Origin: an uncultured Pirellulaceae bacterium
Lineage (GTDB): Bacteria; Planctomycetota; Planctomycetia; Pirellulales; Pirellulaceae
Length of the DNA stretch: 35,385 nucleotides
NCBI GenBank assembly: GCA_937967505.1
Contig: CALCJM010000082.1
Span: forward strand, 1-35,385
Direction of reading: 5' to 3'
Positions within the stretch are counted from its first letter, which is position 1. Each line of letters opens with the position of its first letter. Below the pieces are notes generated by a model that saw only the letters and a program-made list of their open reading frames with translations, made no database searches and was not told the DNA's origin. This document shows, piece after piece, positions 24,325-30,443 of the stretch. A program made the translations under genes and the position numbers.

Positions 24325-25407
<1,083 letters not shown>

Positions 25408-25712: not shown

Positions 25713-28547
25713 CTACTGACAGGCTTCGCAGTCAGGGTCGTCGATACTACAGGCTTTCACTTCCGGTTGGCGATCGACAAGGATGTCCGACGAGGAACTG
25801 GCGTTCTTCATCCAACGAGGCTGGACCCCGAACTTGTTGATGTCAACCGTCGATTTTTCAACCTGTGTCGCACCAAGTGAACGTAGGTAGTAGGTCGTTT
25901 TCAGACCCGTTGTCCACGCAAGTTTGTACATGTCGTCGAGTTTGCGACCACTGGGTTGACCAAGGTACAGGTTCAGTGACTGCCCCATATCGATCCATTT
26001 TTGACGACGACTGGCACATTCAATCAACCATTTAGGCTCAATCTCAAATGCCGTTGCGTAACGTGCCTTGATGTCTTCAGGCAGCCCGGGGATCTCTCCC
26101 AAAGCGCCGTCAAAGTACTTGATCGCTTCCAGCATGTTGTCGTTCCACAGTGCGCGTGCTTTCAGTTCGTTGACCAATCGTACGTTGACCTGGACGAATT
26201 CTCCCGACAGGTTGCTCTTTACAAACAAGTGCTTGTAAGTCGGTTCAATGGACTGGGTGACGCCGATGATTGTGGAGATCGTGGCGGTAGGGGCGATCGC
26301 CATCACGTTGCTGTTACGCATGCCGTGTTTGGCCACTTGCTCTCGAACCGGGGTCCAGTCCATTGATGCATTGTCATCCATCTGGATGTCCATGCCACGC
26401 TCTTCCTGAAGGATTTTGACAGTGTCAATCGGCAGCAATCCGCGATCCCACTTCGATCCCTCGTAAGATGAGTAGGTTCCACGCTCTTCGGCCAGCCGGC
26501 TGGAGGCCATAATCGCGTAATACGAGATCGCTTCCATACTCTGGTCGGCGAATTCAACACCTTCATCGCTCGCGTAACTGATCCCGCACGCCGAAAGTGC
26601 ATCCTGAAAACCCATCAGTCCCATGCCGACCGGGCGGTGACGGCTGTTGGCGTTTTTGGCCTCCGGAGTTGGGTAGAAGTTGATGTCAATCACATTGTCC
26701 AGCATGCGGACGGCCGTATTGATGGTCTCTTCAAGTTTTTCCAGATCCAGTTTGCCGTCGGCGACATGATTGAGCATGTTGATCGAACCAAGATTACAAA
26801 CGGCAATCTCGTCGGCTGATGTGTTCAGCAAAATCTCGGTGCAAAGGTTGCTGCTGTGAACCACCCCTGTGTGGTCCTGTGGTGAACGAACGTTCGATGG
26901 ATCCTTGAAGGTGATCCACGGGTGGCCGGTTTCAAATACGCGTGTCAGCATCTTCCGCCACAAATCGACAGCCGGAACCGACCGGTGCAGCTTGATGTTG
27001 CCTGCGGCGGCCTGTGCCTCGTAGTGCTCGTAACGCTCTTCGAATGCCTTACCATAAAGATCATGCAGGTCTGGCGTCTCTTCCGGGCTGAACAGTGTCC
27101 AGTCCTGCTTTTGAAAGACGCGTTTCATAAACAGGTCCGGAATCCAGTTTGCGGTGTGCATGTCGTGCGTTCGGCGACGCTCGTCACCGGTGTTCTTTCG
27201 CAAATCCAGAAACTCTTCAATGTCCAAGTGCCAGCTTTCCAGGTAAGAGCAAACGGCTCCCTTACGCTTCCCGCCCTGATTGACGGCAACCGCTGTGTCG
27301 CTAACAACTTTCAGGAACGGGATGACTCCCTGGCTTTGGCCGTTGGTGCCCTTGATATGCGAATTGGTCGCCCGGATATTGGTCCAGTCATTACCCAGTC
27401 CACCTGCCCACTTGGAGAGTTTGGCATTGTCGGCGATGGCTTTGAAAATGCCGTCCAAGTCGTCCGCCACCGTACTCAGATAGCACGAGCTCAATTGCGG
27501 GTGCAGTGTGCCCGCGTTGAACAGCGTCGGAGTCGCCGAAGTGAAGCGGAAGGTGGACAGAATGTTGTAAAACTCGATCGCTCGCGCGTTTTTGTCGGCC
27601 TCGTTCATTGCCAGCCCCATCGCGACTCGCATCCAGAAGTACTGAGGTGCTTCAAAACGACGGCCATCGATGTGCAGCAAATACCGGTCGTAGATGGTTT
27701 GCAGACCAAGGTACGGAAACAGGCCGTCACGCTCCGGGGCAATCGTTTCTGCCAGCCGGTCCAGATCATAGGAGGCCATGTTTTCGGCCAAACGTTCCGC
27801 AGCAATCCCTTCCTGCACATAGGACGAAAACTGATCGCGATACAACTGTTTCAGGTCGTCGCTGGCTGCCGATTTGCCCAAGGACTCGCGGTAGATGATA
27901 TTCAGCACCAGACGACCGGCAACGGTGTCGTAGTCCGGGTCATTTTCGATGCGTGCGCGGGCCGCCAATACCATCGATCGGCCGATCTCTTTGGGGGTGA
28001 TCCCGTTGAAGAACTGCTTCTGCACTTCCTCAATCAATTCTTCAGAAGAACAGGTGCTGTTCAATCCTTCACAGGCCGCATCGACTTGGTCCCGCAAACG
28101 ACCAAAATCAAGGTTCTCCAGCTGGCCGTTACGCGTGACCATCATGCTCGGAAAAGCCTCATCGCTTTCCATGTTCTCTTCAGCGCGAAGCTGGCGGATC
28201 TTGTTGTGCTCGGCACGGTACAGGATGTAACGACGGGCAACTCCAAAATGCTCGCCTCGCATCAACTCTTTTTCCACGGTGTCCTGAATTGCTTCGACGG
28301 TAACGCCCGTTGATGTCGCGGCCAGTTCCTGGACGTCTTCGACAACGCTGTCGGTCATCACCGAAATTTCGGCACGCAAACCAGCGTCCAACCGGGTGAC
28401 GTCCTCAAGGCCGCGTTCGGCACAAAAAGCCTTCTCGATCGCTTTTACAATAAGAGATGAATCGAACGAAACCACCCGGCCGTCACGCTTCTTGGCGTTC
28501 AGTTCAGTGGCTGTTTTTTTGCTTATTGAATCGGATGTGTTTAACAT
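25713..28547 (-). CDS. nrdA: Ribonucleoside-diphosphate reductase large subunit NrdA (class I)
   Basis: NrdA reduces ribonucleoside diphosphates to deoxy forms. The 944-residue protein has an N-terminal ATP-cone (about 19-108, [20 protein letters not shown] and on) that senses ATP/dATP. A second region at about 135-230 ([20 protein letters not shown]) may be another cone-like module. The barrel shows LSSCYLSTV and [10 protein letters not shown] for the redox Cys pair, and SNLCTEIL, the Asn-x-Cys-x-Glu motif with the thiyl radical Cys. The tail ends in [12 protein letters not shown], which supplies the Cys pair reduced by thioredoxin or glutaredoxin. GGGAG about 12 bases upstream marks the ATG at 28545-28547. 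The NrdR-type promoter is about 540 bp upstream. Confidence 0.97.
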
Positions 28548-28693
28548 TCCATCGTACTCCCGTAAATATTTGCCATAACGCCGGAGCCTTGGGAGGGCTC
28601 AAAACGCTAATCTGTTTGCCAAATGTTTCAGCCGGTAGGTGCAGAAGTAGCGGGTGTGGGAAGGGAACTGATCGAGGGTTCGTGTCGAATTGG

Positions 28694-28724
28694 TGTGCGA
28701 TAGACCCCAAAGGGATATCGCACA
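28694..28724 (-). promoter_or_regulatory. Hairpin in the nrdA leader
   Basis: TGTGCGATA (28694-28702) and TATCGCACA (28716-28724) are perfect 9-bp inverted arms, and inside them CCC and GGG can add further pairs. It lies 19 bp after the stop of the possible leader ORF and about 147 bp before the nrdA ATG. There is no U-run on the minus strand, so it is not a terminator. It may protect or process the mRNA, or bind a regulator. Confidence 0.5.
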
Positions 28725-28743
28725 GGGTCGAGCTATAAAGAAA

Positions 28744-28980
28744 TCAGGTTCCGTCCCAAATAATTCCGTCTATTGTCTGTCCGAAAAACATTCCATTAAT
28801 AAAGCCTGCCATGACCTCATGACACCTTTGGTCCGGCGGACCGACAGTGATCAGAAAAAAAGCCAGACTTCGTCTCATCCGATTGATCAGGAACAGTCTC
28901 GGCGAAGGCAGCTTGCGAGCCCTCAGCTGTCTGTCCCGGGATTGGCCATCCAAGATGACGTCACCCTCCAACTCCAACAT
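28744..28980 (-). CDS. Possible 78-codon ORF in the nrdA leader
   Basis: The frame runs from ATG 28978-28980 to TGA 28744-28746 inside the transcript expected from the NrdR-type promoter. The first half is hydrophilic. The second half (INRMRRSLAFFLITVGPPDQ, then MAGFINGMFFGQTIDGIIW) is hydrophobic and protein-like. There is no good Shine-Dalgarno before the first ATG, and an internal ATG (MRRSLAFF) could be used instead. I do not recognise the family. It could be a small membrane protein of the nrd operon, a leader peptide, or chance. Confidence 0.3.
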   Translation of the reverse strand: MLELEGDVILDGQSRDRQLRARKLPSPRLFLINRMRRSLAFFLITVGPPDQRCHEVMAGFINGMFFGQTIDGIIWDGT

Positions 28981-29087
28981 GAATCATTCAATTTGAAAAT
29001 CGAGGCCGCTTAGGTTGGCTTGGGGGCCTTTAAGCTGGCTGGTGGTGTTGTAGGACACCTTCAAATCTCTGTTTACTGATGAAGCAA

Positions 29088-29134
29088 TGTCAATATATCG
29101 GTGTCATGGGGTGTGTCAACACAAAATGTTGTGT
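29088..29134 (-). promoter_or_regulatory. nrd promoter with two NrdR boxes
   Basis: On the minus strand TTGACA (29114-29119) and TATATT (29092-29097) are separated by 16 bp, a near-consensus sigma-70 promoter. Two NrdR-box-like sequences overlap it. ACACAAAATGTTGTGT at 29119-29134 is a 6-4-6 palindrome agreeing at 14 of 16 positions with the box consensus acaCwAtATaTwGtgt as I recall it. CAATATATCG at 29091-29100, within 29088-29103, agrees at 9 of the 10 core positions. The boxes are 31 bp apart, three helical turns, as known for NrdR pairs. They point at nrdA, whose ATG lies about 540 bp downstream. NrdR represses when dATP is plentiful; no nrdR gene is in this window. Confidence 0.8.
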
Positions 29135-29672
29135 CTGTGGTGCTGGCAAGCCGCTATTTGGTGGTGCCGGAACCCGGTTTCCCCAAATAATGGGCCATTT
29201 CCCTAGGGTTTGGATTCTGGCTTCGCAAGAAATTTTTTTTCAACGGTTTGAGCACTCTCAGAACAGCCCTTTGCCAATCTGCGCAGTTTAACATTTTAGG
29301 TGCTTTGTGTTGTTCTGTTGAAGGGGAGAGGAAGCTGTTTGCGCCGCGTTTTTCGAAACTGATGAGGCTGTGTTTACCGCACGCAGGTTTCTCCCGGAAT
29401 CTACAAGCGATCGCGCGAATCGGTGGCGCGATCGATGGGAAGGATCAGAGCTTCCGTGCGCGACTTCAGTGTCCCGGCGAACGTTCTAAAGCTCGGTGAT
29501 TGTTGGTCTGTTTGCATGCTCACGCACGCACTGCACTTGCACACGCTCGTGAACGACCGTTTGAATGGCGGTTGCGCGGTGTTGGATCGCCAAAATTTCA
29601 TTCCAACAAGTGGGGCCAAGGATTCTTGGCGAAATCCGCTACCCCGGCAGGTAGCATTGACGAACCACCCGT
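29135..29672. other. Non-coding region upstream of the nrd promoter
   Basis: About 540 bp without an acceptable gene. Near the right end GCCAAGGATTCTTGGC (29614-29629) and GCTACCCCGGCAGGTAGC (29637-29654) are two adjacent hairpins just after the stop of the SprT-like gene. They may end that transcript, although no U-run follows. A plus-strand frame at 29423-29785 overlaps the SprT-like gene and is rejected. Confidence 0.4.
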
Positions 29673-30443
29673 TTAACCTGCCGGTCTTAGCATCGTCAGC
29701 GGCACGTAAAACTTGGAGTACGTTTTTCCATCGTTGTAGCGTACTCCTTGCGGATCGCGTACCAGCACCGTTGCACGTTTGGTGATACGGTTAACGAAGC
29801 CTTGGTAGTCTTGGCCATCGACAGAAAACTTGACCTCGTCACCGCAGCCAATCCCCAGTTTTTTCCTTGCGATATCCTTAGGGGTCAGCAGGCGGTGGTT
29901 GGACTCTGTATGGCCAAAGAGTTGACGTGCTGAATTTTTGAATGGGGCTGCGGAGCAATTCGAGTCGCGAAAAATCAACAGTTCCGCGAGGTGAAGCATT
30001 TCGTGTTCCATGATGCGTTGGAGGGCCTCAAGGCGATTGTGGCAAACCAGCCCGCCAACTTTGGCGTTGCCATCAACCCGGAACGTGTCGAATAACGGCG
30101 TCGTCGCGATTGCTATCTCGAACTCGGGAAGAGACTTCAGATGACGGGCCTGCTGCATGGTCGTCATGCCGCCGGTGGAGGTCATGCGGGTTGATAGCCG
30201 AAATGCCAATGGTCGGCAGGACGCTTGTTCGCAAACGCTTCCCAACATCCCGTCAAAGAATTGCTCGTCGGTGATCTGAAAGAGCAGTCCGAGATCCGCG
30301 TTGGAAATCGTTCTGAAATGTCCATCGCGGATATTGGGCGAATTCTGCAGGACAAACTGATGGACGGCCAGCTGCTTCTTCCGTTGTGCATCGGGGGCCA
30401 GCTGTCGTTGGTGAATTAGCTTCTGAAGTTTTTTGACAATCAT
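29673..30443 (-). CDS. SprT-like zinc metallopeptidase domain protein
   Basis: The 256-residue protein has an N-terminal helix, then the SprT-like core: QFFDGMLGSVCEQ, RPLAFRLSTRMTSTGGMTTM (conserved in the family) and the zinc motif MEHEMLHLAELLIF (HExxH, about residues 146-150). FKNSARQLFGHTESNHRL follows, probably giving a third ligand. The last 70 residues (KKLGIGCGDEVKFSVDGQDY and on) look like a small beta domain. The SprT-like group includes SPRTN, which cleaves DNA-protein crosslinks, but bacterial members are little studied. No signal peptide, so cytoplasmic. ATG 30441-30443. It stands alone. Confidence 0.82.
   Translation of the reverse strand: MIVKKLQKLIHQRQLAPDAQRKKQLAVHQFVLQNSPNIRDGHFRTISNADLGLLFQITDEQFFDGMLGSVCEQASCRPLAFRLSTRMTSTGGMTTMQQARHLKSLPEFEIAIATTPLFDTFRVDGNAKVGGLVCHNRLEALQRIMEHEMLHLAELLIFRDSNCSAAPFKNSARQLFGHTESNHRLLTPKDIARKKLGIGCGDEVKFSVDGQDYQGFVNRITKRATVLVRDPQGVRYNDGKTYSKFYVPLTMLRPAG

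Follow-up and report, generated by a model that had tools for sequence, protein, structure and literature searches.

An NrdR box pair and a putative DriD-type damage promoter upstream of nrdA in a Mariniblastus genome

The nrdAB locus and its leader

The window analyzed here, i.e., the whole stretch of 35,385 nucleotides from a genome of the planctomycete genus Mariniblastus, encodes a class I ribonucleotide reductase on the minus strand. The gene nrdA (25713..28547, minus strand) encodes the α-subunit of 944 amino acids with ATP cones, and nrdB (24325..25407, minus strand) encodes the β-subunit of 360 amino acids. The start of the promoter P1 is predicted at position 29085, which places it 538 nt ahead of the nrdA ATG at 28547. 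In the resulting leader (28548..29085, minus strand, 538 nt) neither a gene nor an Rfam match was found. A previous sequence-only reading of this DNA had judged the distance of about 540 bp to be unusual and had proposed either a long leader or an extra gene in the operon. On the nrdA strand the leader contains no open reading frame longer than 78 amino acids, and besides this a frame of 68 amino acids overlaps the nrdA start. The 78-amino-acid frame has no Pfam match, and when 27 relatives were searched by tblastn, the two nearest ones alone showed similarity, in their leaders. The extra gene was rejected on the basis of the small size of the frames, the missing Pfam match and this narrow distribution. 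The distance itself proved to be ordinary: of 80 named nrdA loci, the 77 with 600 bp or more of sequence ahead of the gene were used for the count, and all of these but L284 (76/77) have a box pair scoring at least 22 at 31 or 32 bp, situated 218 to 891 bp ahead of nrdA, compared to 15 of 770 shuffles. A long nrdA leader is not unusual in the phylum. As a separate observation, the nrdA match of genome G026 (L025) carries a single in-frame TAA.

The NrdR box pair and the promoter P1

Two NrdR-type boxes are located directly ahead of the leader. Box 1 (29119..29134, minus strand; ACACAACATTTTGTGT) and box 2 (29088..29103, minus strand; CACCGATATATTGACA) lie 31 bp apart from start to start, i.e., they are separated by a spacer of 15 bp. 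The boxes are placed on the promoter P1, which is composed of the -35 hexamer TTGACA (29114..29119, minus strand) and the -10 hexamer TATATT (29092..29097, minus strand), the start near 29085 being predicted from the spacing. With 11 of 12 matching positions TTGACA-N16-TATATT is the top one of four sigma-70-like sites in the region 28000-30000, the other three reaching 9/12, and shuffles of this region contain on average 1.4 such sites. The pair had been described as textbook-like, with one box overlapping the -35 and the other the -10. This holds for the spacing of 31 bp and for box 2, which contains the whole -10 hexamer, while box 1 merely abuts the -35 hexamer with one base in common. Box 2 is moreover degenerate and matches 9 of the 16 positions of the NrdR box consensus ACACWAWATWTWGTGT.

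The statistics for single boxes are weak. Allowing up to two mismatches, the box pattern has 24 matches in the 5.03-Mb genome and 31 for the reversed control, and with up to three mismatches three matches were found within the window vs. 2.08 expected, even if the box site of the window is the sole match without mismatch in the genome. As the single-box counts do not exceed the reversed control, the case for an NrdR operator rests on the pair and on its conservation. The pair score of 24 found in the window was reached by one out of 560 dinucleotide shuffles of the same-genus upstream regions. Conservation was the decisive test: all 28 Mariniblastus genomes contain the exact TTGACA-N16-TATATT with the best box pair lying on it at 31 bp, and box 1 is kept in 28/28 leaders, and this in leaders that align poorly apart from the conserved elements. 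Two things that the sequence-only reading had proposed to look for were found, namely this pair ahead of nrdA in relatives and an nrdR gene in the genome (G000:C66; TIGR00244 above cut-off, 193.5 bits). The NrdR box pair on a consensus promoter of nrdAB is thus confirmed as real.

The arrangement resembles the NrdR-regulated nrd promoters of E. coli, Streptomyces and Listeria, in which two boxes three helical turns apart lie on the promoter, and it shares with these systems the presence of nrdR in the genome and a spacer within the published range. NrdRs were described to bind best to spacers of 14-17 bp (PMC12051234), a range that includes the 15 bp found here. In contrast to these systems, box 2 is degenerate, the promoter is situated 538 bp from nrdA and a second promoter-like element lies between promoter and gene. 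From the sequence, P1 is very probably an NrdR-repressed promoter, for which repression at high dATP is predicted.

A second promoter-like element within the leader

This second conserved promoter-like element, here termed P2, had been missed by the sequence-only reading. It consists of GACCAAAGGTGTC (28821..28833, minus strand), which contains a GAC-N7-GTC core of the DriD type, and of a -10-like hexamer, CAGGCT (28803..28808, minus strand), which starts after 12 nt, is weak and retains only the conserved A and T. The predicted start at about 28796 lies 249 nt ahead of the nrdA ATG. Because of this second element a start nearer to nrdA may exist without refuting the NrdR promoter. GACC-N6-GTC is present in 28/28 Mariniblastus nrdA leaders, compared to 133 of 5600 shuffles, and the strict 13-mer GACCnnAnGTGTC in 24/28. 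The full form, GACCnnAnGTGTC-N12-nAnnnT, was found in 21 leaders and is missing from the remaining seven; nAnnnT at N12 as such occurs in 23/28 nrdA leaders. In the seven leaders from outside the genus that were compared initially GACC-N6-GTC was not found (0/7); forms of the motif recur in other named nrdA loci of the Pirellulaceae, such as L229 and L239.

An initial assignment as PafBC/RecA-NDp site was given up since the printed DriD promoters matched the core and the spacing instead. In Caulobacter crescentus DriD is a WYL activator that is activated by single-stranded DNA and acts independently of the SOS response. Its consensus ATACGAC(X)7GTCGTAT overlaps the -35, and the spacing between it and the -10 is fixed (PMC12340889). 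Of the promoters printed there two were compared, with bapE left out: the DriD-bound CCNA_03891 promoter reads GACCGTTTCTGTC-N12-CAATCT and the didA promoter GTCCGTTTCTGGC-N12-CAAGGT, whereby the Caulobacter -10 hexamers were placed by spacing in this analysis and nAnnnT has a chance of 1 in 16 in each case. The element at nrdA shares with the Caulobacter DriD regulon the GAC-N7-GTC core, in CCNA_03891 even as GACC, and the 12 nt to an nAnnnT-type -10, while the flanking ATAC/GTAT half-sites of the DriD consensus are not conserved among 89 sites compared here. Like the mycobacterial PafBC/RecA-NDp promoters, the element is predicted to place recA and repair genes under a WYL-based control that does not depend on LexA. 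PafBC is described in PMC11804915 and PMC12340889 as a heterodimer that acts at a non-palindromic site near -26 with sigma adaptation; in contrast, a single candidate WYL protein and a dyad centered near -31 are found here. Judged by its sequence and its company, P2 is probably a damage-type promoter.

P2-type sites at recA and other genes

Of the 16 same-genus recA loci, 15 likewise carry the 13-mer ahead of the gene, 13 of them together with the -10 behind the core; the flank of the sixteenth locus (L124) is truncated. In the 11 recA loci sampled outside the genus the strict form is absent (0/11). An earlier loose pattern, GACCRDANGNGTC, had given 25 matches in the own genome vs. 13 for its reversed form, many of the matches being within open reading frames, and it was replaced by the form including the -10. 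The full pattern gave seven sites in the own genome vs. none reversed, and 183 sites vs. five reversed across the 28 Mariniblastus genomes. The own set includes a site at an IS1-type transposase gene.

A total of 84 sites was examined, made up of 80 chosen regions less three from outside the genus plus the seven own sites. Recurring gene classes follow 64 of these, and 20 precede no recognized class, two of which (L348, L143) resemble by eye the addB-like class and the first small-protein family. The classes include priA (6), recA (5), imuA-like (5), addB-like (5), ssb (4), SMC-like ATPase (3) and nrdA (1) from repair and replication, furthermore csrA (5), ECF sigma factors (4), small WYL proteins (4) and an ABC ATPase (1), as well as two families of small proteins (13 and 8); these counts are not frequencies, as the regions were chosen among the sites listed and mostly lack the known nrdA and recA sites. 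Classes were assigned by self-written short sequence signatures and only some were checked against Pfam or NCBIfam, whereby the PriA representative scored over the cut-off and the imuA-like, the addB-like and one small WYL protein stayed under the curated cut-offs. The targets named for DriD in PMC12340889 are didA, bapE, recJ, dnaG and a two-gene operon; here the predicted targets include recA, nrdAB, ssb, priA and imuA-like genes. Among the papers listed by the literature searches, none deals with a regulon of this kind in Planctomycetota.

Across the 89 sites, positions outside the search pattern are conserved as well, namely T at -1 (55/89), A at +13 (65/89) and T at +27. A purine occupies +37 in 68/89 sites, which corresponds to the transcription start position if the -10 is set at +25 to +30, a post hoc observation.

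The first small-protein family comprises proteins of about 67-91 amino acids with a LIPRLIRQYEL-like stretch, encoded directly behind the element in many of the genomes (L296, L302, L311, L314, L320, L326 and others); the one member tested has no Pfam or NCBIfam match. A second family (VEPxxxFxPxxW... RWAI) is found behind the element at L147, L317, L322, L333, L350, L352, L354 and L367, again without family match for the one member tested. Stand-alone WYL-domain proteins of about 86-118 amino acids follow the element at L306, L313, L323 and L337.

LexA and a WYL protein as candidate regulators

Of the 19 same-genus genomes searched for lexA, 15 encode it, which favors a reading in which P2 is a damage promoter controlled by LexA or by another factor, perhaps together with one of the small stand-alone WYL proteins. 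The lexA promoters argue against LexA itself. A ACATTTGTATA-like box of the type (A/G/T)ACA(A/T)(A/T)TGTATA is conserved in 12/14 of these promoters in Mariniblastus, e.g., at L105, and in its searched form it occurs once in the own genome, at lexA. This box may bind LexA and is a candidate operator for the genus. Upstream of recA and nrdA nothing exceeds 10/13 matches to GAACATTTGTATA. The P2 motif was rejected as LexA box because lexA carries a different one.

The candidate regulator favored here is a WYL protein of about 338 amino acids. Orthologs of at least 61% identity are encoded by 26 of the 28 Mariniblastus genomes, the two genomes that lack one being G021 (83% complete) and G023 (71% complete). 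WYL and WCX domains score over the cut-off, and HTH_11 reaches 18.5 bits vs. a cut-off of 25. Its best matches among solved structures are DriD-like chains including 8tp8 (E 7.6e-11), followed by PafC (1.8e-5), the DriD match covering WYL and WCX and not the DNA-binding domain. The structure 8tp8 is named as DriD in PMC11804915. On the contig that encodes the WYL protein in the own genome no P2-type site was found.

Outside the genus 32 genomes were compared. Eight with an ortholog of at least 47% identity carry 19 full sites, the other 24 carry six, and the reversed pattern has three matches across all 32. Sites precede recA in G028, G031, G032 and G033, whose RecA proteins are 75-77% identical to the own one, and csrA in G041. 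The link is not perfect: G032 carries the site at recA but shows no match to the WYL protein, G030 and G035 have an ortholog of 56% identity and no full site, and several sites of G033 and G036 fall in or near unrelated open reading frames. These mismatches, and the fact that the connection of WYL protein and site is a prediction, speak for a regulator other than this WYL protein, whereas the core and the spacing fit a DriD-bound promoter. Taken together, control of P2 by LexA or another factor is unlikely, and the WYL protein is the somewhat favored candidate for the regulator of P2.

A two-promoter model for nrdAB

The best explanation, with a probability of roughly 0.62, combines a distal promoter repressed by NrdR with a second promoter nearer to nrdA, which would respond to DNA damage through a WYL activator of the DriD type. 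The nrdAB genes of this Mariniblastus genome would thus be transcribed from two promoters, P1 with a start near 29085 and P2 with a start near 28796 within the leader. P1 would be a sigma-70-type promoter that NrdR, bound to the boxes beside the -35 and over the -10, shuts when dATP is plentiful. At P2, GAC-N7-GTC would replace the -35, with the -10-like hexamer 12 nt after it, and the promoter would join a regulon of recA, ssb, priA, imuA-like, addB-like and other genes. Loaded with single-stranded DNA, the DriD-like WYL activator may bind GAC-N7-GTC and recruit RNA polymerase, so that P2 would be switched on upon damage. Nucleotide feedback and damage induction would act through separate promoters.

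It is rather improbable that P1 alone counts, with GAC-N7-GTC being incidental in a long and passive leader. The exactness of P1 in 28/28 genomes and the generality of long leaders with NrdR pairs in the phylum would agree with such a reading; against it stand the conservation of the motif core in 28/28 leaders whose remaining sequence aligns poorly, and the recurrence of the same element at recA and other repair genes.

The nrdA leader in other lineages

An NrdR-type promoter followed by a long leader is also known from nrd operons with a cobalamin riboswitch. Among 34 scanned loci outside Mariniblastus, one of them without leader sequence (L282), an Rfam cobalamin riboswitch was found in nine (3/9, 4/13 and 2/12 in three batches), where it separates the NrdR-type promoter region from nrdA (L259, L276, L277, L278, L280, L283, L284, L031, L036). 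The four riboswitch genomes checked (G039, G041, G047, G048) all encode a B12-dependent reductase as well, whereby the gene of G047 is broken by the contig end and scores slightly below the cut-off. That the Mariniblastus leader descends from such an RNA regulator as a relic, or continues to act as one, would fit these nine leaders and four genomes, but as a present function it is already disfavored and highly improbable, given that none of the 21 Mariniblastus loci scanned has an Rfam match in the leader, that the own leader shows nothing of note at a relaxed Rfam threshold, and that the 28 Mariniblastus genomes contain no second reductase locus (an extra match in G005 stems from a fragment of the gene already counted).

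About 110-200 nt downstream of the NrdR pair, the leaders of L244-L285 (Fuerstiella, Gimesia and relatives) share a further conserved block. It comprises a second promoter-like site, TTGACA...TAT-CTGC, and a hairpin of the TCGACAGGAGGTCGA type; no consistent open reading frame was seen after it.

The leader is apparently an ancient region in which different lineages accommodate different regulators, and we infer that it is one homologous nrdA leader across them. More tentatively, at slightly less than even odds, the main DNA-damage regulator of Mariniblastus and of some other Pirellulaceae may be a DriD-type WYL protein activated by single-stranded DNA, and not LexA. This WYL protein would activate recA and genes of replication restart, translesion synthesis and end resection and, by means of an inserted second promoter, ribonucleotide reductase, in the same leader that contains a cobalamin riboswitch in those relatives that possess a B12-dependent reductase.

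Implications

If the model is true, the supply of DNA precursors would be tied to DNA damage in a marine planctomycete genus, and the nucleotide feedback and the damage induction of one operon would be split over two promoters. DriD-type damage control would extend from Caulobacter to the Planctomycetota and to core genes such as recA and nrdAB. A regulon would thereby be offered for a phylum whose LexA reportedly does not use the E. coli motif (PMC3108266), and the nrdA leader would hold different regulators in different families.
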